DNA from: Roseobacter sp.
GTDB lineage: Bacteria > Pseudomonadota > Alphaproteobacteria > Rhodobacterales > Rhodobacteraceae
Length of the DNA stretch: 64,000 nt
Assembly: GCA_015665415.1 (NCBI GenBank)
Contig: JADFAE010000030.1
Coordinates: 1 to 64,000 of the forward strand
Direction of reading: 5' to 3'
This document shows positions 1 through 54,328 of this stretch, one piece after another. Numbering within the stretch: the first letter of the stretch is position 1; each line of letters starts with the position of its first letter. The translations under genes and the position numbers were made by a program. Under the pieces are notes generated by a model. It searched no databases. It worked only from the letters and a program-made list of their open reading frames with translations, and was not told the DNA's origin.

Positions 1-410
1 AATTGGGCCCAGGAGGTGATTTCACCGGTAAAGATCCCGCGCAGGTCCTGTTGCGAGATCTCCTCAACAGAGTTTTCTGCATGGACTAGGGCAGCGATGC
101 CATCGCGCGCAATAACATGGGCCATCAGATCCGCCTCACTGAGTTTCAGCGGGCGCGACACCATGGCGATATTGCTCAACCCCTTGCGTAGATCCGCAAT
201 CCCCTTGCTGCTGCCTCCGGTCTCGATAAAAACGCGCGGCTTGTCGCCATTCTGTTCAAACCGCTTTGAGATTTCCAGCATCACCGGTGCGATGGTGCTG
301 GACCCGGTGAGACGAATGTCCGTGTCCGCGGCCAATTGAGCTGGGGTCAGCCCGGCCAGAAAACTGCTGACAATTGCCATAAGAAATACGGCGCGGCGCG
401 AGTGAAACAT
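1..410 (-). CDS. PstS-like phosphate/arsenate-binding periplasmic protein (partial)
   Basis: This reading frame runs off the left edge of the window, so only about the first 136 residues are present. It starts with ATG at 408-410, preceded by a GGAGA ribosome site. The N-terminus is a signal peptide (MFHSRRAVFLMAIVSSFLAG) and the mature part has the PstS family hallmarks: an ITGSST-like loop (RLTGSSTIAP), a GGSSKGI loop, an IAMVSRPLK stretch and ITSWA at the break. PstS proteins bind phosphate in the periplasm for ABC import, and related proteins are common in arsenic gene islands. It is the last gene seen of the arsenic operon, 95 bases after the deacetylase. Whether it prefers phosphate, arsenate or another oxyanion is not readable from the fragment. 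The family call is firm; the arsenic role is inferred from context. Confidence 0.85.
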   Translation of the reverse strand, partial: MFHSRRAVFLMAIVSSFLAGLTPAQLAADTDIRLTGSSTIAPVMLEISKRFEQNGDKPRVFIETGGSSKGIADLRKGLSNIAMVSRPLKLSEADLMAHVIARDGIAALVHAENSVEEISQQDLRGIFTGEITSWAQ

Positions 411-505
411 TGTGTTCTCCAAGTCGGTCTTCCGGCGGGTGTACCGGAGCTGTAAATGTGTTGATCCAGCGGGTAGATCCAGATCGGAAAGTTACGTTTG
501 TTTTG

Positions 506-1672
506 CTAGGCCGATAGTCTTTCGCTGAGGCCACGCATGAAGGCCGTGCAGTGATCCAATTGGTCAAGACTGATGAATTCATCCGGTTGATGGGCCTGTT
601 CCATCGACCCCGGCCCGCAGATGGTGGTGGAAAAACCAGCCTCCTGAAACAAGCCCGCCTCGCTGCCAAACCCAGCTTGCCTGCTGATGTGATCCCCGGT
701 CAGTTGTTTGACCAATGCCTCCGCCGGGCCATCCACTTCGGCGGTGAGACCCGCGACCCGGGCGTTGATTGCCACGGAAATACTGGCCTCTGGGCGCACT
801 TTGCGCAGCTTGGCCTGCATCTGAGAGACATGATCCAAATAGAGCTGCAGCCACTGATCCATGTCTTCACCCGGCATCACCCGGATATCGACCGGAAAGC
901 TGCAATAACCGGCAGTGATATTGCCTGAGCTCCCGCCCTTGATGCGCCCGACATGCAGGGTGGTATAGGGCGGCGCAAACCCTGATGCGGGGCCCACTGG
1001 CAAGGCATTTTTTGCATTTTCCAACATCCTGTCTTCGAGCCAGGTTACCAGACGCGCCGCAGCCATCACCGCCGAAACTCCGGTATGGCAAATGGAGGAA
1101 TGCACCTCATAGCCAGTGACCCGGGTGACCAGCGACCAGGTGCCCTTATGCGCATTGAGAACTGTCATTTCAGAGGGTTCTCCGACAATGACCGCTTCGG
1201 GGTGCGGCAGGGTTTTGGTCAGATAATCAATCAAGGGCTGAACCCCGAAACAGCCGATTTCTTCGTCGTAGCTGATGGCAATATGGATGGGACGCTTTAA
1301 ACCAGCGGCCTGAAACTGGGGCACCATGGCAAGGGCTGCGGCGCAGAACCCCTTCATGTCGCAGGCTCCGCGCCCAAACAAACGCCCATCGCGCGCGCGC
1401 AGCCTCCAGGGGTCGCTGCTCCAGTCTTGGCCTTCGACAGGCACAACATCGGAGTGCCCGGACAGCACCACACCACCGGGTCCAACCGGGCCAAGTGTCG
1501 CCAGCAATGCCGCTTTGTCACCTTTTCCATTTGGCAAAACGGTGACCGGAACACCATGGCCTTGCAGGTAGTCTTGTACGAAATCAATGAGATCCCGGTT
1601 GCTGCTTTTGGAGACCGTGGGAAAGGCCACCAACCGTTCGAGCATTTCATGCGCTGAAAAAATCTGGCTCAC
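506..1672 (-). CDS. argE: ArgE-like M20 family deacetylase in the arsenic operon
   Basis: An M20 family zinc amidohydrolase of 388 residues, most like acetylornithine deacetylase ArgE, which removes the acetyl group from the alpha-amino of N-acetylornithine. Visible metal-site motifs in order are SGHSDVVPVE, GRGACDMKG, the YDEEIGC glutamate pair, VGEPSEM and a C-terminal AHQPDEF histidine. The length is normal for ArgE. The GTG start at 1670-1672 lies 3 bases after the arsC stop codon, so the two genes are tightly coupled; an ATG at 1643-1645 is an alternative start. The setting is the odd point: no other arginine gene is nearby and its neighbours handle arsenic. Arsinothricin and phosphinothricin are inactivated by N-acetylation, so an N-acetyl-organoarsenical is a possible substrate. 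That substrate is inference. Confidence 0.88.
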   Translation of the reverse strand: MSQIFSAHEMLERLVAFPTVSKSSNRDLIDFVQDYLQGHGVPVTVLPNGKGDKAALLATLGPVGPGGVVLSGHSDVVPVEGQDWSSDPWRLRARDGRLFGRGACDMKGFCAAALAMVPQFQAAGLKRPIHIAISYDEEIGCFGVQPLIDYLTKTLPHPEAVIVGEPSEMTVLNAHKGTWSLVTRVTGYEVHSSICHTGVSAVMAAARLVTWLEDRMLENAKNALPVGPASGFAPPYTTLHVGRIKGGSSGNITAGYCSFPVDIRVMPGEDMDQWLQLYLDHVSQMQAKLRKVRPEASISVAINARVAGLTAEVDGPAEALVKQLTGDHISRQAGFGSEAGLFQEAGFSTTICGPGSMEQAHQPDEFISLDQLDHCTAFMRGLSERLSA

Positions 1673-1675
1673 GGG

Positions 1676-2170
1676 CTATACCAGAACCAGCTGCGGCGGC
1701 ACGATTTGTGTCACAAGCTGTTGTAGGGACGCGGTGTCGTCAAACGAAATATCGGCACATATCAAACGGTCAGCGCAGTCATAGAGTTGTGCGTAGGCCT
1801 GTTCGAATGCAGTGGCGACCGCTGCACGCGGACCGTCAAAGGCCGGATCTGCAACCCCCCAATGCGCAGTCACCGGGTTTCCGGGCCAGATTGGACATCC
1901 CGCCTCGGCAGCATTGCCGCAAACAGTGATCACCAGCCCCATTTGCACTGCCCCGGCCTGGCCAAACTCATCCCAGCTTTTGGAGCGCAGACCTTTGGTT
2001 GCATGACCTTTGCGATTGAGCAGCGCCAGAGCTTCGGGGTGGACCCGGCCTGCCGGATGCGACCCAGCAGAATGGGTTGTTATTCTGCCCCTGCTTCGGT
2101 CCCGCAAGATCGCTTCGAGAAGGATTGAACGGGCCGAATTACCCGTGCAAAGAACCAATGCGTTCAACAT
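1676..2170 (-). CDS. arsC: Arsenate reductase, low-molecular-weight phosphatase fold
   Basis: A cytoplasmic arsenate reductase of 164 residues in the LMW protein tyrosine phosphatase fold. It converts arsenate to arsenite, the substrate for the methyltransferase and radical SAM enzyme encoded upstream. The P-loop is C8-TGNSA-R14 (the CX5R motif). C84 and C92 sit in ITVCGNAAEAGCP and would form the disulfide relay seen in the thioredoxin-coupled class. AGSHPAG, RSKSWDEF, HWGVADPA and similar blocks fit the ArsC branch better than ordinary protein phosphatases. It begins 26 bases after the ArsM-like gene stops and ends 3 bases before the deacetylase starts. The spacing of eight between C84 and C92 is one longer than in the Staphylococcus enzyme as I recall it. 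Confidence 0.9.
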   Translation of the reverse strand: MLNALVLCTGNSARSILLEAILRDRSRGRITTHSAGSHPAGRVHPEALALLNRKGHATKGLRSKSWDEFGQAGAVQMGLVITVCGNAAEAGCPIWPGNPVTAHWGVADPAFDGPRAAVATAFEQAYAQLYDCADRLICADISFDDTASLQQLVTQIVPPQLVLV

Positions 2171-2196
2171 GAATATATCCTTATGAATGAAAGAGA

Positions 2197-3249
2197 TCAG
2201 CAGCCACAGTCTTCTCCGGCGCAGGCGGAATCGGGCGGTGGTGCAGCCGCCACGACACGTCCCTTGGTTTCCGCCACGGGACGGCGTACATCGCGGCTGC
2301 AGTCGAACACTGCTGCCTTATCCAGGGGCGGGCGGTCATAGGCTTGGATAATTTCGAAACTGCCGGCATAGGGCGGGCGTTGCAAAACTGCGGCGGTCTT
2401 GGCACAGACGGCCATTCGAATACCGCGTGGATAGCTGTGGCCGTCGTCATCCTGCACCTCTGCCCAGGGGCCCAGATAGATAGCCGCATCGCCCTGTTCG
2501 AGACAGACCCCTTTGGTGCCGGTATGGGCCCGCAGAGCAAAGGCACGCAATTCAACCCCGTTCACGATCATGTAAGGCCGCTCCAGCAGCGGGCGCAAAG
2601 AGATGCCGTGAAAGCCAGCCGCCAGGAGAATACCTGCAAGATCGCTTTCTTGTGGGAAGGCGCTGCAACTGTGGCCCTGACAAGTAATCTGCGCCTCGCT
2701 CAAGGGCTCATCCGTCGCCAGAACCAGGGTTTCAACGCTGCCGCCCCTAATCAGAACCCGGCTCATTTCGGCCAGCGCCATTTCTCGCGCCGGACCCTGC
2801 ATCGTGTTCAACAGAAACGGTGCCACCACAGTTTGAAGACTGTCATCGGCAATCCAGGGCTCTGCATCTGCGGGTGCGATCAAGGCCTGTTGCAAGGCCA
2901 GAACCGAGGTCGCGGATCTGATCCGTTGCAGCAGATCCACGTCCCGGTTTTGCAGATCGCTCGCTACCCGTAGCGACACGCGCCAGGCCTCAGGCTGGTC
3001 TGCCGCATCGGGCAGGGGGCGCTGGGTGTAAATCACATTGGTGTCGCCTTGGCCCTCTGGGCGCAGCTGCAAGCCCTGATCTGAAACATCGATCAACAGG
3101 CACGATCCATCCAGTGGGATGTTTTCCTCGTACCAGTTGGAAACCGCCTGCGACAAAGCGCGACTGTTCCAGTCCAGGATCTCGCCTGCATTGGGGTTTT
3201 GCGCCACCAATTTGGCCGCTGTGGCAATCATGTCGTTGAGTTTATTCAT
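2197..3249 (-). CDS. Degenerate ArsM-like protein with cysteine-rich C-terminus
   Basis: A protein of 350 residues that resembles the ArsM encoded two genes upstream but lacks the glycine-rich SAM-binding loop. Its central part keeps the later methyltransferase landmarks: EMSRVLIRGGSV parallels EIFRVLRPGGRI of ArsM, and the following AAGFHGISLRP block parallels DVGFVGLNVEE. The C-terminal module (YLGPWAEVQDDDGHSY, RGIRMAV, KTAAVLQRPPY) matches the YKGPWTSVTDEAG module of ArsM. The end, SACAGEDCGC, offers three cysteines (343, 348, 350) that could bind arsenite. The start was set at ATG 3247-3249 because CGAGG lies six bases upstream; an upstream in-frame TTG at 3264 has no such site. It may be an arsenic chaperone or a regulatory partner of ArsM or the radical SAM enzyme. 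Function is not known. Confidence 0.75.
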   Translation of the reverse strand: MNKLNDMIATAAKLVAQNPNAGEILDWNSRALSQAVSNWYEENIPLDGSCLLIDVSDQGLQLRPEGQGDTNVIYTQRPLPDAADQPEAWRVSLRVASDLQNRDVDLLQRIRSATSVLALQQALIAPADAEPWIADDSLQTVVAPFLLNTMQGPAREMALAEMSRVLIRGGSVETLVLATDEPLSEAQITCQGHSCSAFPQESDLAGILLAAGFHGISLRPLLERPYMIVNGVELRAFALRAHTGTKGVCLEQGDAAIYLGPWAEVQDDDGHSYPRGIRMAVCAKTAAVLQRPPYAGSFEIIQAYDRPPLDKAAVFDCSRDVRRPVAETKGRVVAAAPPPDSACAGEDCGC

Positions 3250-3291
3250 CGTATGCCTCGACAAGGTTCAAAAAGGGCCCAATGGCGCGGA

Positions 3292-4566
3292 TCAGCATTT
3301 CAAACAGCAGCGCTTGAATTGACCTTCCTCCACCGGCGTGACCGAGGCACGAAACAGCTCATCAACCCGCTCATCGGGGTGGAACCAATCGTAGTGGAAC
3401 TCCTGTTCTTCCAGGCGCAACGCCTGAATGGTCTCGTTGCGCATCAAAGGCGAACCTTTGTAGAGGTGCAGGCGTGTCTCGAATTGCACCGGGTCCACCG
3501 AGTTCTCCATGTTGGTTTCCACCAGGAAGTCATGAAACCTGGGGAAATCCTCCAATGTTACCCATGGGTTGAACATGATGAAGGTCGGATTGAGTGTGAT
3601 GCCCGCGTCCTGTACCAGGCGCACGGATTCCTTGAGATTCTCCACATCCACCTCTTTGCAGACTTGCTGCAAAACTTCGTTTTTGGGGAATTCCAAGGCA
3701 GAGGTGATCACCCGCACCCCCTGTTCGCGCAGCTCACCCAGCCGGTCGCGGTTTTCCAGGATATGATCCACCCGGGTGGTGAAATCGAAGGTCAATTTGG
3801 GGTGACGCTGGTGAATACGCGCCAGCGCGTCAAAGCTGCGCCGCGTGGCATTGAAGAACTCGGCATCAATGAAGGTCATATGTTCCATGCCTTGCTCAAC
3901 CAGCGCATCGATATCTTCGACCACTTGATCCACATCCCCCAAAAGCACCTTGCCGTCATAGGCCGAAAAGACCGAGCAATAGGTGCATTTGTGGTGGCAT
4001 CCACGGGTCAGCTCCAACCCGCCCACGATCTTTTCCTCCCCCATCAGAGTGGTCAGATGCGGCTGTGGATATTTCGACAGATTGGGGGCGATATGACGCA
4101 TCGGCTTGGCCATGGTGCCGCGCAGTTTCAACATCTGCATGGTCTGCTCTGGCGTGGCTGATCCGTGGCTGTAGACATTGACGACAGGGTCTTTTGCCCC
4201 CGCCTTGCGGTTCATCAGCGAGACCAGAGGCACCTCCCATTCACCGCTGACAACGTGATCGGCGTAACGACCACTGAGATAGGAAGCATTGATGGTGGCA
4301 TATTGCCCGAACATCACCTTTTCAGCCGTGCAGCCGGCGGCGTCCAGTTCTTTGGTCAGCTGAATCGCCGAATTCAGACTGTCAAACAACGGCACCGGCA
4401 AAATGATCGTGTCATATGTTTTCAGCTTTTCAATGTCATAGCCTTCGACATAGGCATCCAGGAAATCAGTGTCATGTCCGGCATTGCGCAAAGCAGCCAA
4501 CCCGGTGAGAGCATTAAGAGGCTGATAGCCGCCTTCGAAAATTGAAACGAGGATAGAAGAAGCCAT
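3292..4566 (-). CDS. arsL: RCCLKC-tail radical SAM protein, ArsL-like
   Basis: A radical SAM enzyme of 424 residues. Residues 1-130 form a Rossmann-like region of the kind that precedes the core in B12-domain radical SAM proteins. The iron-sulfur ligands are C190, C194 and C197 in RGCHHKCTYC, the canonical CX3CX2C motif. The last six residues are RCCLKC, the signature used to name the RCCLKC-tail radical SAM family found beside arsenic genes. The characterised family member ArsL moves a 3-amino-3-carboxypropyl group from SAM to arsenite, giving hydroxyarsinothricin. The gene lies 55 bases after arsM and 42 before the ArsM-like gene, in the same operon and in the arsQ-arsM-arsL order. The tail cysteines probably bind arsenite. 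The family call is strong; the exact product made here is inferred. Confidence 0.88.
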   Translation of the reverse strand: MASSILVSIFEGGYQPLNALTGLAALRNAGHDTDFLDAYVEGYDIEKLKTYDTIILPVPLFDSLNSAIQLTKELDAAGCTAEKVMFGQYATINASYLSGRYADHVVSGEWEVPLVSLMNRKAGAKDPVVNVYSHGSATPEQTMQMLKLRGTMAKPMRHIAPNLSKYPQPHLTTLMGEEKIVGGLELTRGCHHKCTYCSVFSAYDGKVLLGDVDQVVEDIDALVEQGMEHMTFIDAEFFNATRRSFDALARIHQRHPKLTFDFTTRVDHILENRDRLGELREQGVRVITSALEFPKNEVLQQVCKEVDVENLKESVRLVQDAGITLNPTFIMFNPWVTLEDFPRFHDFLVETNMENSVDPVQFETRLHLYKGSPLMRNETIQALRLEEQEFHYDWFHPDERVDELFRASVTPVEEGQFKRCCLKC

Positions 4567-4621
4567 GGCTGGGGTGTCCTTGGGTCAGAGCATCAGAAAC
4601 GAGAAAGAGTGAAGATTGTGA

Positions 4622-5677
4622 TCAGCCGCAGCAGCCGCTGTCGGTGTTTGCGGGCTGATCCTCCAGAAAATGCACATGCTGCGCATAGGCCGAGTGCCGC
4701 AGCTGGTCGGCGGTGTCCGCATCCAAAGTGGTCACCTCGCCGCGCCGCAACTGGGTGCCAGCCTCATCCGTAACCGAAGTCCAAGGGCCCTTGTACAGCA
4801 CCCGCTCGGCGGCCGTTGATCGACCCGCCTCGCGCGGTTTGGTTGCAGTCACCGTCACCGATTGAAACGTCACCTCACCAATGGTTTTTTCTGGAACCCC
4901 CGCGCGTTCTTCGACGTTGAGGCCAACAAAGCCGACATCGCGCAAGGCCCGGTAGAACTCCTGCTCCTGGTAGACACCGGAGTAACATCCGACCCACAGT
5001 TCCGGGTCATTTTTCAAGCTCTCGGGGACAGGGACATTGGAGACATTGTCTGACAAGGCGATCCGACCGCCGGGGCGCAAAACCCGAAATATTTCCTGTA
5101 AAACAAGGCCCTTGCTATCGGTGTCGACCAGATTGATCACACAGTTGGAGACCACCAAATCGACCGAATTATCCGCGATCATTGGCTGGTTTTTGCGCAG
5201 ATCCTGCAAATGGTCCTGCAGGGCGGAATACTCTTCGATCGAGCCAATCTGCCGCCCGGAAACCGTAGCCTCGACCGCGTCAAGATCGCTGCCCAGATCA
5301 TCGATTGACCCCCAGACGAAGCGCAGGTTGTCGTAGCCGACCTGTTGCGAAAACGCGGCCTGATGGGCACGCGACAGGGTCATCATGTCCCGGTTCATGT
5401 CGACGCCGATCACCTGCCCCGAAGCGCCAACAATCTGCGCCAGGATATAACAGATCTTGCCACTGCCGCTGCCCAGATCCAGCACCACATCACCGGGTTG
5501 GGCATATTTCGACGGGTTGCCACAGCCATAATCCCGCTCGATGATGTCCTGCGGCACCCGGCGCAGCAGCTCCGGGTCATAACTATTCATGCGGCAGACC
5601 TGTGCGGCCTCTGTACCCATGGCGCCATCCGCCTGGGTAATGCGGTCAGTATAGCCTTGTAGAACGGCGTTTTTCAT
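4622..5677 (-). CDS. arsM: Arsenite S-adenosylmethionine methyltransferase
   Basis: An ArsM family methyltransferase of 351 residues that transfers methyl groups from SAM to trivalent arsenic. The SAM loop VLDLGSGSGK is at residues 65-74. The three arsenic-binding cysteines of ArsM enzymes are all present: C52 in YGCGNP, C179 in SNCVINL and C231 in VGCYSG. The post-core module has YKGPWTSVTDEAG and the protein ends SGCCG, a vicinal cysteine pair typical of the family. The start is ATG 5675-5677 (MKNAVLQGY); a longer frame reaches 5899 but overlaps the permease gene and its extra residues look non-coding. In arsinothricin producers ArsM methylates the hydroxy precursor formed by ArsL, and the gene order here supports the same task. 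Confidence 0.92.
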   Translation of the reverse strand: MKNAVLQGYTDRITQADGAMGTEAAQVCRMNSYDPELLRRVPQDIIERDYGCGNPSKYAQPGDVVLDLGSGSGKICYILAQIVGASGQVIGVDMNRDMMTLSRAHQAAFSQQVGYDNLRFVWGSIDDLGSDLDAVEATVSGRQIGSIEEYSALQDHLQDLRKNQPMIADNSVDLVVSNCVINLVDTDSKGLVLQEIFRVLRPGGRIALSDNVSNVPVPESLKNDPELWVGCYSGVYQEQEFYRALRDVGFVGLNVEERAGVPEKTIGEVTFQSVTVTATKPREAGRSTAAERVLYKGPWTSVTDEAGTQLRRGEVTTLDADTADQLRHSAYAQHVHFLEDQPANTDSGCCG

Positions 5678-5763
5678 GGTCACGGGGCAATCACTTTCCT
5701 GGTTTTGGATATGTGGCGTTTGAGGGATGCATCCCCTGGTCTGAGATGTCGGTTCACCCTGGG

Positions 5764-6945
5764 TCAGCTCAGGATGAACAGGTGGAACCCAAGCAGGACC
5801 GACAGGCCAACCAGGGCCTGCAGCACCGCTCCCGTGCTCAGGATCATGGTTGCATTGAATTCGCTCTCGTCGGCCAGGGCACTGCGCCGAACCAGCCAAT
5901 AGAAACTGTCATTTGGCAGGATCGCAACAAAGGAGCCGAGACAGATTGCGATCACCGCCGCAACCGGTGACACCTCAGAGGCGGCAACGATGGGCACAGC
6001 TACGGGCCCGGCGGCAGCAAAGGTCGACATGCTGGAGCCCTGGAGCAATTTGAACACTGCCGTCATGCAAAACAGGGACACCAAAGCCACCGCGCCATTT
6101 TGTGGCGTAAAGATCTGCTCTACCGGGATCACGGCCGTGACAAAGGCGCTAAAGGCGCTGGCGGCTCCGATGATCAGCAGCAAAGACCCGGTGCGCCGGA
6201 TGCCGCCATCGATACAGTTGCGCCGCTCAGCTCGTGGTACCATGGACAGAGCCGCTGCAGCCGTGATCATCAAGGCCCCTTTGGGATTGGTGGCAAAATC
6301 TATCAAGGGGTTAAACGACAGGTCAAACACTGCGCCCCCGGCCAATAGCGCCGCAAGCAGCGCAAAGGGAGCCAGCATGGCAATGGAAGCGCCGATCTGC
6401 AGTCCTTCGCGGTTTTGGGTTTTGGGAGCCAGTCTGGACTCGATGATCCAGCTGTAGGCCAGTCCAGCCACCCAGACCGGGACAAATATCAACAGGCAAT
6501 ACGCCAGAAGCCCCGCATCGGCCACGCCCAGACTGGTGGCAATGATGAGCGGTCCCGCCGGAAACAGCAGCTTGAACCCGGCATAGGCCCCAAAGGCGAG
6601 AGAGAGTTTCTTCTCGCGCACCATCGGGGACAACGCTGCATAGGCGGTATCCGGACAGATCATGCCGGCTCCTACCACAGGTGCCAGACCAACCGATACA
6701 GTCTGGGGGACTTCGACCCTTTGCTGATCGATGGCTGCTGCAAGAACAAAGGACGGGAGCAGGATCAGCGCAAACTCCCCGGCGGCATATCCCCAACCGG
6801 TGTTGAATGTCGAAATAATCTCACCGGAACTGAAACCCGCGAAAACTCCGATCCCCAAAGTGATCAGGATCATCCAGATGAGGATTGGCCAGTCCGGCCA
6901 GAATTTAGTCGTTGCAACCTCACGCTCAACGGTTGGATCACTCAT
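5764..6945 (-). CDS. arsQ: GntP-like permease, possible organoarsenical exporter
   Basis: An integral membrane protein of 393 residues with about ten to twelve hydrophobic segments spread along its length and a short polar N-terminus. Blocks such as VGAGMICPDTAYAALSP, LQGSSMSTFAAAGP and IAICLGSFVAILPNDSFYW resemble the GntP/gluconate permease group of ion-transporter proteins, not ArsB or Acr3. It is the first gene of the operon, with AAGGA ten bases ahead of ATG 6943-6945, and arsM follows 86 bases later. In arsinothricin clusters the first gene, arsQ, encodes a permease, so by position this one is the probable exporter of the organoarsenical product. I assign arsQ from gene order, and sequence relatedness to the known ArsQ should be tested by alignment. 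An importer role is the main alternative. Confidence 0.7.
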   Translation of the reverse strand: MSDPTVEREVATTKFWPDWPILIWMILITLGIGVFAGFSSGEIISTFNTGWGYAAGEFALILLPSFVLAAAIDQQRVEVPQTVSVGLAPVVGAGMICPDTAYAALSPMVREKKLSLAFGAYAGFKLLFPAGPLIIATSLGVADAGLLAYCLLIFVPVWVAGLAYSWIIESRLAPKTQNREGLQIGASIAMLAPFALLAALLAGGAVFDLSFNPLIDFATNPKGALMITAAAALSMVPRAERRNCIDGGIRRTGSLLLIIGAASAFSAFVTAVIPVEQIFTPQNGAVALVSLFCMTAVFKLLQGSSMSTFAAAGPVAVPIVAASEVSPVAAVIAICLGSFVAILPNDSFYWLVRRSALADESEFNATMILSTGAVLQALVGLSVLLGFHLFILS

Positions 6946-7053
6946 CTTATACGTGTCCTTTCTAGCCGTATTTCCGATTCACGCTCTGCAAAATAGCGCT
7001 TCGTCCTCAGCAAATTCCTCAAGATGTCCGGACCTTCCTGTACTCTACGGTTT

Positions 7054-7067
7054 AAAGGTGGACCTTT
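7054..7067. promoter_or_regulatory. Inverted repeat between arsenic operon and lysR
   Basis: AAAGGT-GG-ACCTTT is a perfect inverted repeat in the 200-base divergent region between the permease start (6945) and the lysR start (7146). It could be an operator for either direction. No ArsR gene is in the window, so the regulator of the arsenic operon is unknown. Confidence 0.35.
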
Positions 7068-7145
7068 CAGCGCGACAGCGCGGGCCAATGAATTCTGCTT
7101 AAAGGGGTATTACTATTTCTCAAAATTTGATTTATTCATCTGGGT

Positions 7146-8060
7146 ATGAAAAAAAGTAATTTGACACTCCCCACGACGAAATCCCTCTGCGCCCTCGAAG
7201 CGACAGTGCGGTTGGGGACCGCGACCTTGGCGGCTTCGGAACTGCATGTCACGCAGGCTGCCGTGAGCCACCGCCTGCGCGATCTGGAAGATCAGTTGGG
7301 TGAATCGCTCTTTATCCGCCATGGTCGCCGGTTGGAGCCAACCAGCGCCGCCCTGCAATTGGCCGAGGCGGTGCGCAACAGCTCCTCTATTCTTGAAAAT
7401 GTCTGGGGTGGCATCCAAAGTAGGGCCAGTACCGATGAGCTGACAATCAGCATGCTGCCAGCTCTAGCCAGCAAATGGCTTGCTCCGCGCCTCGCAGAGA
7501 TGGTGACCGAGGTACAAGGCGCCAATCTGAGGATCACGGCCTCGCGCGAGCTTGTCGATTTCGACAAAGAGCAGGTCAGCGCGGCCATTCGCTACGGCAC
7601 CGGCAATTGGCCCCAGGTCCGCGCCCGCCCGATGGCCGATGAAACTGTCGCACCCGTTATGGCGCCAAGCCTGGCACGGCAATTGAATCTGGCCTCACAC
7701 CGCGCACTCAGTGAGGTGACACTGTTGCGATGCGACAACCCGGACAGTTGGGAAGACTGGTTTGCTGCCACAGGCCTGAAACAACCCAGCCAGCCAAACG
7801 AGATCTTCTTTGATGAAGACGCAACGATGATCGAGGCAGCGATTGGCGGGCACGGGATTGCTTTGGGACGGTTTGCGCTGGTGGCGCGGGATCTACGGGC
7901 TGGCCGCCTGGTGGCCCCGTTTCAATATCGCATGACCTCCAAATTCGGGTATTGGTTTATTCAGGGCATGAACAGTAGCGAAACAAAGCCAGTGATGGAT
8001 TTTTTCCAGTGGGCCCGTGGCCATCTGCTGCGGGACACCCAACTGTTGGACTTGGATTGA
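7146..8060 (+). CDS. LysR-family transcriptional regulator, GcvA-like
   Basis: A LysR-type regulator of 304 residues. The N-terminal winged helix-turn-helix is clear: GTATLAASELHVTQAAVSHRL at about residues 24-44, then DLEDQLGESLFIRHGRRLEPT. The C-terminal part is a periplasmic-binding-protein-like effector domain with the GcvA-type pattern (WLAPRLAEM, ISVAIRYG-like SAAIRYGTGNW, GHGIALGR). It starts 200 bases from the divergent arsenic operon and ends 172 bases before a thiamine-diphosphate enzyme read in the same direction. LysR regulators often control a divergent neighbour, which would be the arsenic permease, but the TGCGAAAA repeats before the downstream gene make that gene another candidate. 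The effector cannot be read from sequence. Confidence 0.9.
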   Translation: MKKSNLTLPTTKSLCALEATVRLGTATLAASELHVTQAAVSHRLRDLEDQLGESLFIRHGRRLEPTSAALQLAEAVRNSSSILENVWGGIQSRASTDELTISMLPALASKWLAPRLAEMVTEVQGANLRITASRELVDFDKEQVSAAIRYGTGNWPQVRARPMADETVAPVMAPSLARQLNLASHRALSEVTLLRCDNPDSWEDWFAATGLKQPSQPNEIFFDEDATMIEAAIGGHGIALGRFALVARDLRAGRLVAPFQYRMTSKFGYWFIQGMNSSETKPVMDFFQWARGHLLRDTQLLDLD

Positions 8061-8232: not shown

Positions 8233-9855
8233 ATGAACAACCAGATTTACGCCTACCAATCTATCGCCCGCGCAACCCATGAGCACGGAGTGGATCTGAT
8301 GTTCGGGTTGATGGGAGACGCAAATCTGTTCATGGTCGACAGCTTTGTGCGGGATTTTGGCGGCCGCTTCATCCCCGCAGCACATGAGGCCAGCTCTGTC
8401 TTGATGGCTTTGGCCCATGCCCATGTGTCTGGCAAAGTCAGCGTTGCCACCGTAACCCATGGGCCCGCACTCACCAATTGCACAACAGCCCTCACCGAAG
8501 CGGCACGAGGAAACCTGCCTTTGGTTATTCTTGCCGGCGATACCCCCGTTGACAATCCCCGCCACCTGCAAAGCATCGATCAACGCGAATTGGTCAAGGT
8601 GACCGGTGCCGGCTTTGAGCAGCTGCGTTCCGCCAAGACCATCAGCGAAGACGTGGCGCGTGCCTTTTATCGTGCCCAGGTCGAACGGCGCCCAATCGTG
8701 CTGAACATGCCGGCCGATTTCATGTGGCAAGAGGTGACGCATCAGACACAGGTGTTCGATCTCCATGCCTCGCCCAGAGGCGTGGCTCCTGGTGACAATC
8801 TGGACAATGCGATCGGCATGATCGCTTCCGCGCGCCGCCCTCTGATCCTGGCCGGTGCAGGTGCCGTTGCTGCGCGCGAGCAGATAATCCAACTGGCTGA
8901 CCGACTGGAAGCACCACTTGCCACCACGCTCAAGGCCAAGGGGCTGTTCAATTCCCATCCCTATAACATTGATATCTTTGGGACCCTGTCGACCCCTGCG
9001 GCCTATGATCTGATAGCCCAGTCTGATTGCATCGTCTGTTTTGGAACTGCGCTGCATGATTTCACCACCGATCGTGGCAAGCTGATGAAGAACAAACGTG
9101 TCGTTCAGATCGATGTTGAGCCGGTGGCAATTGGTGGCGGCTTGCACCCGGATGCCGCGCTTGTCGCCGATGCCGGGCTCACGGCGGAAACCATCCTCTA
9201 TTGGCTGGAGGAAGCGGAAGTTGCCCCAAGCGGTTTTACCAAAGAGCTGGACATCGCCACCCTCACCAAACATCCCAAGCCAACGGAGACAGAAACCGAA
9301 GGTTTCATAGGTTTTGTCACCGCGCTGGACCGGCTGGAAGCGGCGCTGCCGCAGGACCGGGTTCTGGTCACCGATGGCGGGCGTTTCATGACGGAAGTCT
9401 GGTGCCGCATGTCTGCACCTGATCCGCAAAGCTTTGTTGCCACCGTGAATTTCGGCTCTATCGGGCTGGGTTTGCAAGAAGCCATAGGGGCGGGCCTTGC
9501 GGCCCAGGATCGCCCGGTGGTTATGTTTACCGGCGACGGCGGCTTCATGATGGGCGGCATCAATGAATTCAACACCGCAGTGCGCCTGGGCCTTGATCTG
9601 ATTGTCATTGTCGCCAATGATTCTGCCTACGGGGCCGAACACATCCAATTTATCGACCGGAAAATGGACCCCAGCCTGACCGAATTCCACTGGCCGTCCT
9701 TTGCAAAGACCGCCAAGGCACTGGGTGGCGAAGGGGTCGAGGTTCGCTCAAAATCAGAGCTGGAGATCGCAATTTCTGCCCTTGAAAACCGCAAAGGCCC
9801 CTTGCTCATAGAACTCCGCCTGGATCCGCATGACGTGCCCCGGATGCGCATCTGA
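8233..9855 (+). CDS. Thiamine diphosphate-dependent enzyme, acetolactate synthase-like
   Basis: A ThDP enzyme of 540 residues with the three-domain layout of acetolactate synthase, benzoylformate decarboxylase and oxalyl-CoA decarboxylase. The N-terminal pyrimidine-binding domain has the catalytic glutamate in PAAHEASSVLMA (about residue 52). The middle domain starts near DNAIGMIASARRPLILAGAGA. The C-terminal domain has the diphosphate and metal motif GDGGFMMGGINEF followed by ANDSAYG, which matches the GDG-to-N spacing of the family. The FAD-binding part of true acetolactate synthases is not obvious, and no small regulatory subunit gene is nearby, so valine and isoleucine synthesis is unlikely. 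The substrate is unknown. It is probably controlled by the adjacent LysR. A hairpin follows the stop codon. Confidence 0.85.
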   Translation: MNNQIYAYQSIARATHEHGVDLMFGLMGDANLFMVDSFVRDFGGRFIPAAHEASSVLMALAHAHVSGKVSVATVTHGPALTNCTTALTEAARGNLPLVILAGDTPVDNPRHLQSIDQRELVKVTGAGFEQLRSAKTISEDVARAFYRAQVERRPIVLNMPADFMWQEVTHQTQVFDLHASPRGVAPGDNLDNAIGMIASARRPLILAGAGAVAAREQIIQLADRLEAPLATTLKAKGLFNSHPYNIDIFGTLSTPAAYDLIAQSDCIVCFGTALHDFTTDRGKLMKNKRVVQIDVEPVAIGGGLHPDAALVADAGLTAETILYWLEEAEVAPSGFTKELDIATLTKHPKPTETETEGFIGFVTALDRLEAALPQDRVLVTDGGRFMTEVWCRMSAPDPQSFVATVNFGSIGLGLQEAIGAGLAAQDRPVVMFTGDGGFMMGGINEFNTAVRLGLDLIVIVANDSAYGAEHIQFIDRKMDPSLTEFHWPSFAKTAKALGGEGVEVRSKSELEIAISALENRKGPLLIELRLDPHDVPRMRI

Positions 9856-9858
9856 GCC

Positions 9859-9880
9859 GACAGCGCGGGGCCGTGCTGTC
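9859..9880 (+). terminator. Hairpin after the ThDP enzyme gene
   Basis: GACAGC at 9859-9864 pairs with GCTGTC at 9875-9880, with CGG and CCG continuing the stem inside. It begins 3 bases after the stop codon. There is only a short TTC after it, so termination strength is doubtful. Confidence 0.45.
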
Positions 9881-10555
9881 TTCAGAGGCGGCGACGGGAA
9901 CAAGACTTGGCAACGCTTAGCCTCCCCAAATTTCGAAGGGCTGATACGCCTTGCGAGGATCACAGGCAGAAATCTCTGACAGCGCAGCCTAGGCCCAACG
10001 CGAAGATTTGCTGACTGGCGTTCTGTGCAGAGTGTGAGCGATTATTGAAGCGCAGAATATGATGACGTGCCTCGCTGGGTTGCCCTCAGATTTGGTCAAA
10101 ATTTCCAACAGAAATTTAGCCTAGGGCCGGAAGGCCTCAGGATGCACATCAATTCCAAAAGCAGCTGTCCTCTTTCGATCAGAAACCTTCGCAGCAATTG
10201 GATTGAGTTGAACTGGCGCAGAACCCGCGAAGAGTGCATCGCGGCACCCATGTGCTTTGAGTTTAAAATTTTCTTGCTTAAAGTTAATATTGGTGCTCAT
10301 ACTGATGTTCGATAGAATAGCCATCGTGTCTGGTGCCATTGCGAAGGCCCTTCGATGGTCCGAAGTGATGGAGTGCGATAGCGGCGCAATGGTCCCAAAC
10401 CAAAGTGACACATTCCGGCCTTCTGAAAACGGGAGGCTCGCACGCCCAGAGACCACAGCTTGTCTCGAAAGGAGCGGTTTAAACCAGTGATTGAGGCCAC
10501 TTTTGGGCCCAGGAAAATTCAACAACCAAAACCAAGATCAACGGGAGTGACAACA
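9881..10555. other. Long intergenic stretch before livK
   Basis: No convincing gene. Frames at 10067-10315 (+) and 10121-10525 (-) lack a ribosome site and recognisable motifs, and overlap each other. The stretch is AT-richer than its flanks around 10260-10320 and carries the 21-base element listed separately, so it probably holds the livK promoter. Confidence 0.5.
10264..10284. promoter_or_regulatory. Shared 21-base element upstream of livK
   Basis: TAAAATTTTC, TT, GCTT, A, AAGT. The same element, with AA for TT and G for A (18 of 21 bases identical), occurs at 20605-20625 upstream of the SDR-marR genes. It lies about 270 bases before livK. Confidence 0.5.
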
Positions 10556-11695
10556 ATGAAACTTAGCGCCCTTATCCTGGCGGCGACCACCGCAGCGACA
10601 GCCGCTATCACCGCACAGGCTGAACCGGTCAAGGTCGGCATGATCACAACGCTTTCGGGCGGCGGTGCCAGCCTCGGCCTGGCAATACGTGATGGTTTCA
10701 TGCTGGCCGTAAAACAGGCCGGAAATCCCGACCTCGAGATTATCATCGAAGACGACCAGCGCAAACCCGATCTGGCTGTACAACTGGCCGACAAGATGAT
10801 CCAGTCGGCAAAGGTTGATGTCCTGACCGGTATTGTCTGGTCCAACCTCGCGATGGCTGTGGTGCCTTCGGCGACGGCACAGGGCAAATTCTATCTGTCA
10901 CCAAATGCTGGTCCCTCGCTGCTGGCGGGTAAGGGCTGCCATGAGAACTATTTCAACGTCGCCTGGCAGAACGACAACCTGCACGAGGCCGCAGGCGCCT
11001 ATGCCAACACGGCGGGGTTCTCCAACACCTTCATTTTGGCGCCCAACTACCCGGCAGGCCACGATGCGCTGGCGGGGTTCAAACGGACGCACGAGGGTGA
11101 GGTCGCGGGCGAGCTGTTCACCAAGCTCGGACAAACCGACTACGCCTCGGAACTGGCGCAGATCCGGGCCTCTGGCGCGGACAGCGTTTTCTTTTTCCTT
11201 CCCGGGGGAATGGGCATTTCCTTCCTGAAACAATTTGCCGACAGCGGTATCGAAACGCCTTTGGTCGGGCCGGCCTTCAGCTTTGATCAAGACATCCTGC
11301 AAGCGGTTGGCGACGCCGCCATGGGCGTGCACAATACCAGCCAGTGGAACAAGGACCTGGACAACCCCGCAAACATGGCCTTTGTCGAGGCGTTCCAGGC
11401 CGAGTATGGCCGCCTGCCTTCGTTGATCGCCAGCCAGGGGTACGACACCGCCAATCTTCTGCTGAGCGCGATGGACAAGGCCGATGTCAAGGACGCCGAC
11501 AGCTTCCGCGAGGCGCTGCGGGCGGCTGATTTCACCTCGGTGCGCGGCGATTTTGCCTTTGGCGCTAACCAGCACCCAGTTCAGGACATTTACGTCCGCG
11601 AGGTGATCAAGGAAGGTGATGTCTATACCAACAAGACCGTCGGCGTCGCCCTGACGGATCACGCCGACGCCTATGTCGGTGAGTGCAAGATGTGA
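10556..11695 (+). CDS. livK: ABC transporter substrate-binding protein, LivK type
   Basis: A periplasmic binding protein of 379 residues of the branched-chain amino acid/aromatic acid (HAAT) type. The first 22 residues are a signal peptide ending ITAQA before EPVKVGMITTLSGGGASLG. The Peripla_BP_6 fold is recognisable through LAVQLADKMIQSAKVDVLTG, NYPAGHDALAGFK and DSVFFFLPGGMGISFLKQF. The start is ATG 10556 with CGGGAG ahead; an upstream frame to 10460 lacks signal-peptide character. It opens a livKHMGF operon. Because the operon directly precedes the aromatic-acid CoA pathway, the natural ligand may be an aromatic acid such as 2-aminobenzoate or benzoate instead of leucine; that is inference from position. 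Confidence 0.9.
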   Translation: MKLSALILAATTAATAAITAQAEPVKVGMITTLSGGGASLGLAIRDGFMLAVKQAGNPDLEIIIEDDQRKPDLAVQLADKMIQSAKVDVLTGIVWSNLAMAVVPSATAQGKFYLSPNAGPSLLAGKGCHENYFNVAWQNDNLHEAAGAYANTAGFSNTFILAPNYPAGHDALAGFKRTHEGEVAGELFTKLGQTDYASELAQIRASGADSVFFFLPGGMGISFLKQFADSGIETPLVGPAFSFDQDILQAVGDAAMGVHNTSQWNKDLDNPANMAFVEAFQAEYGRLPSLIASQGYDTANLLLSAMDKADVKDADSFREALRAADFTSVRGDFAFGANQHPVQDIYVREVIKEGDVYTNKTVGVALTDHADAYVGECKM

Positions 11696-11749
11696 TCTTC
11701 GGTTCGGGCGCGGCTCCGTGCTGCGCCCGTTCACGAGTTGGGGATACCG

Positions 11750-12670
11750 ATGTCTTTACTTCTTTTTGTCGAACAGCTCCTGAACGGGCTGCAATTCGGG
11801 ATGACGCTGTTCTTGACGGCGGCCGGGCTAACGCTGGTCTTCGGGGTCATGGGACTGATCAATCTCGCACATGGCTCGTTGTTCATGGTCGGCGCCTTTG
11901 CGGCGGCGGCGGTGTCAGCCGCGACCGGGTCGTTCCTGCTGGCCATGGCGGCCAGCATCGCCGCCGCAGCGGCGGCAGGGGCATTGGTCGAAGTGGTCGT
12001 TATCCGGCGACTTTACCGTCGCGACCATCTGGATCAGGTGCTGGCGACCTTTGCCCTGATCATGATTTTCTCGGAAGCGACACGTTGGCTGTTCGGGTCA
12101 TTCCCCCTGTATCTGAACATCCCGACCTATTTGTCCGGACCGGTCACCCTGCCCGGCGGAATCGAATATCCGCTTTACCGCCTGACCATCATTGCGGTCG
12201 GGCTTCTGATCGCCATCGGCCTGTTCCTGCTAATTAGCCGCACCCGGCTTGGGATCCAGATTCGCGCCGGTGAAAGCGACCGCGAGATGATCGCCGCATT
12301 GGGGATTGATATCTCGAAACTCTATACCATCGTATTTGCGCTTGGCGCGGCGCTGGCCGGACTTGCGGGGGCCATGATCGGCGCGATCCAATCCGTCCAG
12401 GTCGGCATGGGCGAACCGGTTCTGATCCTCGCCTTCGTGGTGATCGTGATCGGCGGTATCGGGTCGATCAAGGGCGTGCTGATCGGATCAATCCTGGTGG
12501 GCATGACAAATACCATGGGGGGCGTCCTGCTGCCCGCATTCCTGCGCCTGTTCATGGAAAATTCGGCGGCCACCGCCGCTGGTTCAGCTCTGGCAACGAT
12601 GTTGATCTACATCCTGATGGCCCTGGTACTGATCGTGAAACCAACCGGATTGTATGGAGCTCGCACATGA
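11750..12670 (+). CDS. livH: ABC transporter permease, LivH type
   Basis: An inner-membrane permease of 306 residues with about eight hydrophobic segments. The LivH landmarks are present: the early GLTLVFGVMGLINLAHGS stretch, the EAA-like loop near RAGESDREMIAALGIDI and the following ALGAALAGLAGAMIGAI. The start at ATG 11750 follows GTTGGGG; a TTG at 11738 would add four residues. It starts 54 bases after livK and overlaps livM by four bases (ATGA). It forms the membrane channel with LivM and is driven by LivG and LivF. Confidence 0.92.
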   Translation: MSLLLFVEQLLNGLQFGMTLFLTAAGLTLVFGVMGLINLAHGSLFMVGAFAAAAVSAATGSFLLAMAASIAAAAAAGALVEVVVIRRLYRRDHLDQVLATFALIMIFSEATRWLFGSFPLYLNIPTYLSGPVTLPGGIEYPLYRLTIIAVGLLIAIGLFLLISRTRLGIQIRAGESDREMIAALGIDISKLYTIVFALGAALAGLAGAMIGAIQSVQVGMGEPVLILAFVVIVIGGIGSIKGVLIGSILVGMTNTMGGVLLPAFLRLFMENSAATAAGSALATMLIYILMALVLIVKPTGLYGART

Positions 12671-13650
12671 CCCGTGAAACCGTGATCAACGGTCTTCTGG
12701 CGCTGTTGCTGCTAGGAGTTCCGCTTTGGGCCTATTTAGCCGATGAGCCTTTCCTCATCACTCTGGCCACCAAAGTTGCCATTCTGGCCCTGGCTGGTGT
12801 CGGCCTGAACATCGCTTTGGGGCAGGGCGGCCTGGTCAGCCTTGGACACGCGGCGTTTTTTGGCATCGGCGGCTATGCCATGGGCATTCTGGCGAGTCAC
12901 GCGCAGAGTTATACCCCGCTGGCCGAATGGCCATGGACGATCGAAGGCAGCAACTCCATGCCGGTCATCTGGATCACGGCGGTCGTCACCTCGGCGCTGG
13001 CGGCCCTTGTCATCGGGGCCCTGTCGCTGCGCACCAGCGGCGTTTACTTCATCATGATCACCTTGGCGTTTGGTCAGATGTTGTATTACTTCGCCATAAG
13101 CTGGCCGGCCTATGGCGGCGAAGACGGGCTGTCGATCTATGTCCGCAACGGGTTTCCTGGGTTGAACACCCTTGATCCGATCCAATTCTTTGCAATCACC
13201 TATGTGATCCTGATCGCAACTCTGTTCTTTGCGGCACGGCTGACCCGGTCGCCCTTTGGCCTGGCCCTCAACGCAGCGCGCCAGACCTCCGAACGAGTGG
13301 AAACCGTTGGCATTGTGCCCTACCAACTGCGGCTGACGGTCTTTGTCATCTCGGGGGCGATAACGGGACTGGCGGGGGCGCTGTTCGCGGATCTCAACCG
13401 CTTTGTCAGCCCCTCTATGCTCAGCTGGCACACATCCGGTGAACTGATGATCTTTATCATTCTGGGCGGCACCGCCCGCCTGTTCGGCCCGCTAGCGGGT
13501 GCCGCTGCCTTTATCGTGCTTGAACAGATGTTAGGCGGGTTGTCGGATTACTGGCACATCCATCTGGGCCTGCTGTTGCTGGTCGTGGTGCTTTTCGCGC
13601 GCGGCGGCATTATCGGCACCCTGGCCGGAGAGGAGGTCCGCCATGACTGA
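12667..13650 (+). CDS. livM: ABC transporter permease, LivM type
   Basis: The second permease subunit, 327 residues and strongly hydrophobic. GVGLNIALGQGGLVSLGHAAFFGIGGYA near residue 40 is the LivM signature; RTSGVYFIMITLAFGQM and the late ISGAITGLAGALFADLNRFVSP match the family. Its ATG overlaps the livH stop and it overlaps livG by eight bases, so the genes are translationally coupled. Length is normal. Confidence 0.92.
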   Translation: MTRETVINGLLALLLLGVPLWAYLADEPFLITLATKVAILALAGVGLNIALGQGGLVSLGHAAFFGIGGYAMGILASHAQSYTPLAEWPWTIEGSNSMPVIWITAVVTSALAALVIGALSLRTSGVYFIMITLAFGQMLYYFAISWPAYGGEDGLSIYVRNGFPGLNTLDPIQFFAITYVILIATLFFAARLTRSPFGLALNAARQTSERVETVGIVPYQLRLTVFVISGAITGLAGALFADLNRFVSPSMLSWHTSGELMIFIILGGTARLFGPLAGAAAFIVLEQMLGGLSDYWHIHLGLLLLVVVLFARGGIIGTLAGEEVRHD

Positions 13651-14392
13651 TCCGATCCTGTCCGTTCACAACATCAACAAATCCTTCGGCGCGCTCAAGG
13701 CATCGCAGGATGTGTCGCTGGACCTGAGGCCGGGTGAGATTCACGCGCTGATCGGGCCAAACGGTGCCGGGAAATCGACGCTGATCAAGCAGATAGCGGG
13801 CGGGCTGCGGCCTGACAGCGGCATGGTTCGGTTTCTCAATCAGGACGTGACCCATCTGAACACGGTGAAACGCGCCCGCATGGGGTTGGGGCGCACCTTT
13901 CAGATTTCATCGCTGGCGATGGAAGATACGGTGCTGCAAAACGTGATGCTTGGCGCGCTTGGAGCACATGGCCGGACCTTCCGCTTCTGGCGGCCCGTGC
14001 TGCGCGACAAGGCACTGCGCGAAATCGCAGAAGCCGCCCTGGCCCGGGTCAACCTGTCGGACCGGGCAAGTTTCCGGACCTCGGATCTGAGCCATGGACA
14101 ACGCCGCCAGCTTGAGGTCGCGGTGGCTTTGACACTCAGCCCCCGCGTTTTCATCATGGATGAACCGATGGCCGGACTTGGTGCCAGCGGGTCGGTCAGC
14201 CTGACCGCGTTTTTGGACGAGTTGCGCCACGAGGCCCCTATTCTGCTTGTTGAACATGACATGGATGCGGTGTTTGCGCTGGCCGACCGCATCTCGGTTC
14301 TGGTCTATGGCCAGGTCATCGCCACGGGCACGGTCGATGAGATCCGCGCCAACCCCGAAGTTCGCCGCGCCTATCTGGGAGACGAAACGTGA
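13643..14392 (+). CDS. livG: ABC transporter ATP-binding protein, LivG type
   Basis: A cytoplasmic ATPase of 249 residues. Walker A is GPNGAGKST, the signature loop appears as DLSHGQRRQLEVA (weaker than the usual LSGGQ, as is usual in LivG), Walker B is VFIMDEPMAGL and the switch histidine is in ILLVEHDMDAVF. The NTPase energises LivH and LivM together with LivF. GTG of livF overlaps its stop. Confidence 0.93.
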   Translation: MTDPILSVHNINKSFGALKASQDVSLDLRPGEIHALIGPNGAGKSTLIKQIAGGLRPDSGMVRFLNQDVTHLNTVKRARMGLGRTFQISSLAMEDTVLQNVMLGALGAHGRTFRFWRPVLRDKALREIAEAALARVNLSDRASFRTSDLSHGQRRQLEVAVALTLSPRVFIMDEPMAGLGASGSVSLTAFLDELRHEAPILLVEHDMDAVFALADRISVLVYGQVIATGTVDEIRANPEVRRAYLGDET

Positions 14393-15078
14393 GCCTGTTA
14401 TCCTTGACCAACGTTTCCGCATTTTATGATGCGTCGCAGGCCCTGTTCAAAGTGAACCTGCACATCGATGAGGGAAAGGTTGTGGCCCTGATGGGGCGCA
14501 ACGGCATGGGTAAGACAACCACAATCAAAGCGCTGTGTCGCATGCTGCCCACTGCCGGGGGTGAGATCGTGTTTGACGGCCAAGACCTTCGCAGACTTCC
14601 ATCGCACAAGGCTGCCCGGCTGGGTCTGGGGCTGGTGCCCGAAGGTCGGCGATGCTTTCCCAATTTGACAGTCGAGGAAAATCTGATCGTCGCAGCGCGG
14701 CCCGGCCATTGGGACTTTGCCCGCGTCAGTCGGCTTTTTCCCCGGCTGGAGGAACGCAAAAGCCAATCCGCGGCCTCACTTTCGGGGGGCGAACAACAAA
14801 TGCTGGCCATTGGTCGCGCGCTGATGACAAATCCGCGACTTCTGATCCTCGACGAAGCAACCGAAGGGTTGGCGCCTCTGGTGCGCCAGGAAATTTGGGC
14901 CGTGATTGCCACTCTGAAAAAGGAAACGGGTCTTTCTATTCTCGTGGTCGACAAGTCTCTGAAAGAACTATCCGGGATTGCAGATGACGCGGTTGTTCTG
15001 AATCGCGGCGAAACAGTCTGGCAGGGTGCCATGGATGCGCTGTCGGCAGACATTACCGATCGCTATCTCGGAGTATAA
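14389..15078 (+). CDS. livF: ABC transporter ATP-binding protein, LivF type
   Basis: The second ATPase, 229 residues, starting with GTG in a GTGA overlap with the livG stop. Walker A is GRNGMGKTT, the signature is SLSGGEQQMLAIGRAL and Walker B is LLILDEATEGLAP, the last being typical of LivF. In the switch region the usual histidine is replaced: the motif reads SILVVDKSLKEL where LivF proteins commonly have VEQ. It is the last gene of the transporter operon and faces a convergent marR gene. Confidence 0.92.
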   Translation: MSLLSLTNVSAFYDASQALFKVNLHIDEGKVVALMGRNGMGKTTTIKALCRMLPTAGGEIVFDGQDLRRLPSHKAARLGLGLVPEGRRCFPNLTVEENLIVAARPGHWDFARVSRLFPRLEERKSQSAASLSGGEQQMLAIGRALMTNPRLLILDEATEGLAPLVRQEIWAVIATLKKETGLSILVVDKSLKELSGIADDAVVLNRGETVWQGAMDALSADITDRYLGV

Positions 15079-54212: not shown

Positions 54213-54328
54213 GGTGTCGCCTCGTAACATGTTCGCCTTTTCGACGTATATCGGTGAAACTAGCGGACATCCTGCAATCAATCCACCATCTATGAGATAA
54301 TTCTTGTGAAGGATGGGAAAAGATAACA

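Follow-up and report, generated by a model that had tools for sequence, protein, structure and literature searches.

The window analysed here, the first 64,000 bases of a 120,965-base contig (C14; JADFAE010000030.1, assembly GCA_015665415.1) of Roseobacter sp., begins with part of what we read as an operon, carried on a plasmid, for the biosynthesis of an arsinothricin-type product and for the supply of the arsenic that this takes, an interpretation that we regard as probable rather than secure. Open reading frames (ORFs) and family scans agree on a run of seven minus-strand genes, in the order arsQ (5764..6945), arsM (4622..5677), arsL (3292..4566), a paralogue of arsM that we term pseudo-arsM (2197..3249), arsC (1676..2170), a gene for an ArgE-type M20 deacetylase (506..1672) and the 5′ part of pstS (1..422), just as the original prediction from the bare sequence had placed them. 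The gaps between them, taken from the coordinates, span 3 to 86 bases. A gene for a LysR-family regulator (7146..8060, plus strand) diverges from arsQ and, counting the part that lies beyond the contig end, the whole operon comprises 11 same-strand genes plus this divergent lysR. We saw no ArsR, ArsB or Acr3 in the ORFs and family hits, either of the operon or of the genes next to it, which agrees with what had been predicted.

The pstS gene had been named correctly, and its apparent truncation is due only to the contig start. A stretch of 241 bases at the end of the contig repeats its beginning, with 237 identical positions and four mismatches, and the pstS frame crosses this junction to continue outside the window (locus L006, to 17308). 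It is followed on the same strand by pstC (L006 17311-16385), pstA (16398-15517), pstB (15551-14655) and a GNAT acetyltransferase gene (14695-14111), the whole part occupying L006 17964-14111; these genes were identified from ORFs and families, with trees in addition for the pst genes. Chance or artefact at the contig ends is ruled out, as pstS reads through the 241-base overlap and, once joined, its product aligns with complete homologues. Because the ends overlap and the contig carries genes for a Rep3 initiator, a ParA-type ATPase and a ParB-domain protein (window 51767-56081, by family scan), we take it to be most probably a circular Rep3/ParAB plasmid. A repABC plasmid is ruled out, with RepC unmatched in the genome and the Rep3, ParA-type and ParB-domain genes present instead.

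The core of the operon was tested against the NCBIfam equivalog models for arsinothricin and their curated cut-offs, and all three proteins pass: ArsL, the radical S-adenosylmethionine (SAM) enzyme for the carbon–arsenic bond, with a CHHKCTYC cluster motif and an RCCLKC tail (NF040542, 655.3 bits against 450), the methyltransferase ArsM (NF040538, 530 against 500) and the export permease ArsQ (NF040536, 515.9 against 480). The match to arsQML claimed from the sequence alone is thus borne out, the radical SAM protein lying inside rather than outside the ArsL family. For the Burkholderia gladioli genes expressed in Escherichia coli, it has been reported that arsL alone yields hydroxyarsinothricin (AST-OH), that arsL together with arsM yields arsinothricin (AST), and that ArsQ exports AST (PMC8552651).

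ArsL exceeded its cut-off in two of 394 genomes of the same family (the source genome and G063), and in the source genome alone among 385 genomes sampled from the class and 398 from the phylum. A scan of genome contigs for arsL gave 41 loci, one of which (L077, a weak partial match) was left out of further scanning; the RCC-x-KC tail is present in all of the remaining 40. Two loci from other Rhodobacteraceae, with ArsL proteins 92% (L037) and 88% (L038) identical to that of the window, carry LysR, arsQ, arsM, arsL, pseudo-arsM and argE in the window's order, L038 with a GNAT gene as well, and neither shows arsC or a Pst set of the kind described below within 10 kb on each side. As the same order, without arsC and pst, recurs in these two loci, it is not the product of chance. 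Their contigs, NVUP01000011 (Rhodobacter sp., L037) and NZ_JAFEUL010000009 (Actibacterium sp., L038), are both named in a survey of AST gene clusters published in 2021 (PMC8552651), so the core was already known in Rhodobacteraceae, which weakens the suggestion that arsinothricin-type products in a Roseobacter-group bacterium may be new.

The conserved cysteines are divided between the two ArsM-family proteins. In five ordinary ArsM proteins, three cysteines lie in the catalytic half, at alignment columns 62, 197 and 249, and three in the C-terminal half, at columns 314, 351 and 386. The arsinothricin-type ArsM, including that of the window, keeps the catalytic three in all five sequences, which with column 38 gives four conserved cysteines, while columns 314, 351 and 386 hold a cysteine in one, none and none of the five. 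Among seven pseudo-ArsM proteins the pattern is complementary, with no cysteine at columns 62, 197 and 249 in any of them, a cysteine at 314, 351 and 386 in all seven, and extra cysteines in the tail. Both types also share an insertion that is absent from the five ordinary ArsM. The protein of 2197..3249, previously called ArsM-like, is therefore an ArsM paralogue by alignment that lacks both the catalytic cysteines and a recognisable SAM motif, a remnant of the latter being discernible only in the pseudo-ArsM of locus L043. A Pfam scan of this protein gave no hit, and it scores 48.5 against 500 bits with NF040538. Its structure model is of moderate quality (predicted local distance difference test score, pLDDT, 66.7), and the best Foldseek hits are ArsM structures at E 1.6e-9 with a low TM-score of 0.30, which is why the case for pseudo-ArsM is built on the cysteine alignment. 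It is thus a pseudo-methyltransferase, whose cysteine pattern suggests part of a split enzyme or an arsenite carrier, and the complementary loss suggests a duplication with divided work, in which methyl transfer would fall to ArsM and the holding or hand-over of arsenite to pseudo-ArsM. Since ArsL and ArsM of B. gladioli are enough in E. coli (PMC8552651), pseudo-ArsM would be an aid and not a necessity. In Pseudomonas amygdali the corresponding region (L088 13278-14152) consists of two short frames, the second with the C-terminal cysteine half; as that half was found alone as one frame after a short one, the gene may be split there.

The other half of the argument concerns the importer. All four Pst proteins fall below the curated cut-offs of the phosphate-transporter models (TIGR02136, TIGR02138, TIGR00974 and TIGR00972), with 118.6 against 206.6 bits for the PstS piece (218 of 279 residues scanned), 189.1 against 196.45 for PstC, 190.5 against 193.45 for PstA and 279.9 against 343.2 for PstB. 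The complete PstS and the PstB of a locus of the clade described below (L129) also miss, at 169.6 against 206.6 and 320 against 343.2. In trees of the four subunits, the window clusters with Pseudomonas sp. SJZ074 (L039), the sponge symbiont Candidatus Spongiihabitans (L041) and three cyanobacterial plasmid systems, with support of 98/99 for PstS, 100/100 for PstC, 100/99 for PstA and 97/99 for PstB. L041 was left out of the PstB tree, its frame being broken, and that tree has one extreme outlier (L107); in the PstC tree the long branches of the window and of the sponge symbiont join. The presumed housekeeping Pst of the source genome (contig C15) falls outside the clade in all four trees. At E 1e-25, PstC found only two matches in 294 other genomes of the same family, of 31 and 32% identity, and a profile of clade PstS at E <= 1e-60 found nine other genomes among the 398 of the phylum sample, eight of them scoring 378-402 bits, while the ninth (G784, 213 bits) was treated as a non-member.

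The company kept by these genes points to arsenic. A full Pst set adjoins arsL in 12 of 40 loci besides the window, and the sets of Pseudomonas sp. SJZ074 and the sponge symbiont are those that share the window's clade. Ten Streptomyces arsL loci (L055-L062, L064, L066; RCCVKC tail) have a Pst set of a different lineage with a fused permease and were excluded from the clade counts, and a Lentzea locus (L065), where hits to PstC, PstA and PstB lie some 7 kb from arsL and a hit to PstS is absent, was not counted. Among the 11 clade loci that were not found through arsL, five have ArsM beside or near pst and two, both cyanobacterial, lie after an ArsR/SmtB gene only, giving seven in all. The five with ArsM belong to the eight loci found with the profile (L124, L129, L131, L133, L135), with ArsM immediately adjacent in four and at about 3 kb in one; the ArsM of L135 matches solved arsenite methyltransferases at 4e-100, and the other four align with it throughout. 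L129 is an arsenosugar cluster, with ArsS (462 against 300 bits), TIGR04283 (250 against 182) and TIGR04282 (207 against 134). ArsM and ArsR are absent from the annotated neighbours, 4-6 kb on each side, of seven non-clade plasmid Pst loci (L111, L112, L114-L117, L147). One of these controls, L111, comes from an arsenite-oxidising bacterium and may have a different kind of tie to arsenic, while in L147 a gene for a low-molecular-weight phosphatase lies at a distance of about 6 kb. The other, Streptomyces lineage of Pst, separate from the clade, is also linked to arsenic on a plasmid of Streptomyces sp. NBC_01708 (L146 4192-8271), where an ArsR gene directly precedes pstS, a long and probably fused permease and an ATPase follow, and Acr3, ArsC and thioredoxin genes adjoin.

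The anion-binding site of PstS is altered as well. In the anion loop, which we take to be Arg135 to Thr141 in E. coli numbering, alignment shows that lysine stands in place of the arginine in all 14 clade members and in all three members of the Streptomyces lineage tied to arsenic. The site is gapped in one of the 16 controls (Monoglobus), and the 15 readable ones have arginine in nine, proline or alanine in five and lysine in one (G784). Four residues past the lysine, the clade carries arginine in nine members, histidine in four and serine in one, the window itself. At the position that, from the alignment, we take to be that of the arsenate-discriminating aspartate, the window and Nostoc have asparagine and the other 12 of 14 retain aspartate. 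A structure model of PstS was too poor for use (pLDDT 54.7). The loop pattern suggests an altered substrate, short of proof. The lone PstS-like protein of G784 (L136 7956-8801), with a Lys...Gly-Arg-Ser-Thr loop, is encoded beside a large sensor-like gene and may be an arsenic oxyanion sensor.

From clade membership, neighbourhood and residue changes, the most likely reading is that the clade is an importer dedicated to arsenic anabolism, with arsenate as the likeliest substrate. Several observations weigh against it. The shortfall of PstC and PstA from the phosphate cut-offs is narrow, the aspartate is kept in most of the clade, and G784, the one binding protein outside it with the same loop, shows that the loop is not confined to the clade. 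Four of the 11 loci (Gloeothece, the third of the cyanobacterial systems; L130, on a 6.2-kb contig; L132; and L134) have no recognised arsenic neighbour when read by eye, and the five neighbouring ArsM score 156-181 against the 263 bits of the NCBIfam arsenite methyltransferase cut-off. Moreover, ArsS is found in three of eight clade genomes and in 54 of 110 genomes of a phylum sample that is heavy in a few families, so that a genome-level tie to ArsS is not seen; because ArsS is no commoner in clade genomes, the arsenosugar tie is one of gene linkage. Finally, an importer is not required, since L037 and L038 keep arsQML, pseudo-ArsM and argE with neither pst nor arsC in the stretch covered.

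These same observations could be accommodated by a phosphate importer of extra selectivity, co-expressed with arsenic genes so as to let phosphate in and keep arsenate out. PstS proteins are described as discriminating against arsenate, one Halomonas protein about 4500-fold, by means of the aspartate (PMC7866108), and its retention in 12 of 14 members, the narrow misses of two of the four subunits and the ArsR/SmtB–pst arrangements, which would suit a response to arsenic stress, all fit. Against this stand the asparagine in the window's own PstS, and in that of Nostoc, together with the higher arsenate affinity described for a Clostridium perfringens PstS without the low-barrier bond (PMC7866108). 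The operon shows no arsenite efflux gene among its ORFs and family hits, and PhoU was not noticed beside the clade loci, unlike at four control loci. Possible routes of arsenic entry also occur on other arsL plasmids. Six annotated ones drawn from the 16 best hits (Pseudomonas amygdali, Pantoea, Alicyclobacillus, two Priestia and Klebsiella) carry an aquaporin in five cases and a Pit-type phosphate transporter in one, so an entry route may be common in arsL clusters, that of the window being the Pst clade. Aquaporins may also release arsenite, and four of the six plasmids carry an annotated arsenic transporter. Taken together, we judge the selective phosphate importer to be unlikely.

A different alternative is that the operon detoxifies, with ArsL, ArsM and ArsQ converting arsenic to an exported organic form whose antibiotic action is incidental. 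On the six plasmids arsR, arsC, arsenic transporter or ArsN1-type genes are often found near arsL, which would be in keeping with such a role. In the window's operon, however, ArsR, ArsB and Acr3 are not seen, uptake is encoded, and the genome holds a separate set, named from translations, of an ArsR-ArsC fusion, GAPDH and an ArsJ-like protein (L139, C18:1-9000, 463-3568), which reads as arsenate detoxification apart from the operon. We therefore consider this explanation very improbable. The biosynthetic reading put forward originally is retained in its arsinothricin core, and the finding that pstSCAB is complete, outside the window, makes its oxyanion uptake more credible. The novelty suggested for the Roseobacter group is weakened by the earlier listing of Rhodobacteraceae.

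The remaining genes would complete the supply line and the handling of the product. The putative arsenate reductase ArsC, of the low-molecular-weight phosphatase (LMWP) fold, exceeds the cut-off of PF01451 (51.9 against 23.2 bits), shows a CX5R motif and two further cysteines in its translation, and lies below the arsenate reductase cut-offs (43.4 against 174.3 for TIGR02691; 28.7 against 157.6 for TIGR02689). The ArgE-type protein passes at equivalog level (TIGR01892, 386.1 against 297.7; NF005710, 459 against 412) and has M20 motifs at residues 72, 101, 135, 163 and 359, which we take to be the metal ligands. It is 76 and 66% identical to its counterparts in L037 and L038, compared with 48, 42 and 38% for the three further ArgE-like genes taken from this genome; the gene of 38% identity (L105 945-2096) lies on the same plasmid. 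In three of three Rhodobacteraceae clusters argE adjoins pseudo-arsM or arsC, and GNAT is present in two of the three. ArsN1 inactivates AST by acetylating its alpha-amino group (PMC6465285), and N-acetyl intermediates of bialaphos are known (paper cited in PMC13302981). A cycle in which GNAT would protect by acetylation and ArgE would later release the product is plausible. The best families of GNAT are the ArsN1a and ArsN1b models, whose cut-offs it does not reach (97.3 against 210; 91.3 against 170), and this counts against our scheme. The same genes could instead mean that the released product is acetylated arsinothricin, with ArgE acting inside or outside the cell, or that both enzymes serve amino-acid metabolism and have no more than the operon in common with the pathway. 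The recurrence of argE and GNAT, the ArsN1 chemistry and the bialaphos precedent speak for these possibilities too, while the sub-threshold GNAT scores and the absence of an argE match from the Pseudomonas and sponge-symbiont arsL loci speak against them; we think them doubtful.

The LysR protein has the Pfam HTH_1 and LysR_substrate domains, scores 259 bits with the GcvA model, below the cut-off of 288, and has counterparts in the same place in L037 (68%) and L038 (55%). In the gap between lysR and arsQ (6946-7145), an A/T-rich motif of approximately TAAAxCxxATTTTG near the lysR start was seen by eye to be alike in the window, L037 and L038, and is a possible regulator site.

The data show which genes are present and in what order, the families of the core proteins, the transporter clade and the residue changes. 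On this basis we consider the following scheme probable, although we infer the importer substrate, the activity of ArsC, the final product and what pseudo-ArsM, GNAT, ArgE and LysR do. PstSCAB of the arsenic-linked clade would import an arsenic oxyanion, most likely arsenate, which ArsC would reduce to arsenite. ArsL would add the 3-amino-3-carboxypropyl group of SAM to give trivalent hydroxyarsinothricin, to be methylated by ArsM, probably aided by pseudo-ArsM through its C-terminal cysteines, and ArsQ would export the product. To protect the producing cell, GNAT may place an acetyl group on the alpha-amino nitrogen while the compound is still inside, and the ArgE-type enzyme may strip it off. 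The divergent LysR, not ArsR, probably controls the operon. A more ambitious version, in which the clade imports arsenate for arsenic anabolism in two unrelated pathways, those of arsinothricin and arsenosugars, and in which it here feeds a self-contained line from arsenate to antibiotic, with the work of ArsM shared by a catalytic subunit and a pseudo-ArsM that holds the arsenic-binding C-terminal cysteines, is one that we suspect is somewhat more apt to fail than to hold.

On the six arsL plasmids GNAT is present in all six and an ATP-grasp gene in five (L089-L093; Pantoea, Alicyclobacillus, Priestia and Klebsiella); by reading, an ATP-grasp gene was also seen near arsL in Vogesella and Clostridium (L040, L054). 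By analogy with bialaphos, such an enzyme might couple arsinothricin to amino acids. Around the operon, the adjoining part of the plasmid (L006 1-11210) reads as a purine breakdown region, with xanthine dehydrogenase subunits, permeases, a deaminase and allantoin-type enzymes. Beyond LysR (window 8233-15078) lie genes for a thiamine pyrophosphate (TPP) enzyme and a branched-chain amino acid ABC transporter, which were not counted in the operon; tblastn found nothing matching the TPP gene in L037 or L038.

The common view is that arsenic gets into cells accidentally, by way of phosphate or glycerol transporters. If our reading is true, some bacteria would be importing arsenic deliberately as building material, by means of a transporter clade that accompanies organoarsenical pathways, and the clade would serve as a genetic marker for arsenic-using microbes. 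The binding-site changes, a lysine and mostly arginine or histidine in the anion loop and, in the window's PstS, asparagine for the discriminating aspartate, are testable, and the complementary cysteine loss between ArsM and pseudo-ArsM offers a test of arsenical hand-over between enzymes. The arsQML core is known; what is new here is the arsenic-linked Pst clade, pseudo-ArsM and the presumed acetyl protection, and descriptions of the first two were not found in the open-access literature. No title or abstract opening found there ties pst to arsL or to arsenosugar clusters, which is weak evidence of absence.

Although the importer shares the four-gene order, the fold families and the general mechanism of the PstSCAB phosphate ABC importer, it is set apart by its scores below all four cut-offs, its separate clade, its altered anion loop and the absence of adjoining PhoU and PhoB. 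Arsenosugar clusters (ArsS, TIGR04167, with TIGR04282 and TIGR04283) use ArsS rather than ArsL, and the source genome has no ArsS match at E 1e-40; yet in genome G838 the same Pst clade stands directly beside ArsM in such a cluster. Pseudomonas sp. SJZ074 has arsQ, arsL, pseudo-arsM, same-clade pstSCAB, arsM, GNAT and arsC in common with the window, but in another order, with extra methyltransferase, P450, hydrolase and ArsR-like genes (by reading) and with argE and LysR unmatched. With the operon of B. gladioli GSRB05 (PMC8552651) the window shares arsQ, arsM and arsL in the same order. The B. gladioli operon has been proposed to be ArsR-controlled and arsenite-inducible; in and beside the operon of the window no ArsR gene was seen, and LysR stands where B. 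gladioli has ArsR. That paper reports pitA nearby, and its main text contains no words beginning with pst, arsN, acetyltransferase or deacetylase. To the shared core the window's operon, carried on a Rep3 plasmid, adds pseudo-arsM, arsC, argE, pstSCAB and GNAT in one gene run.

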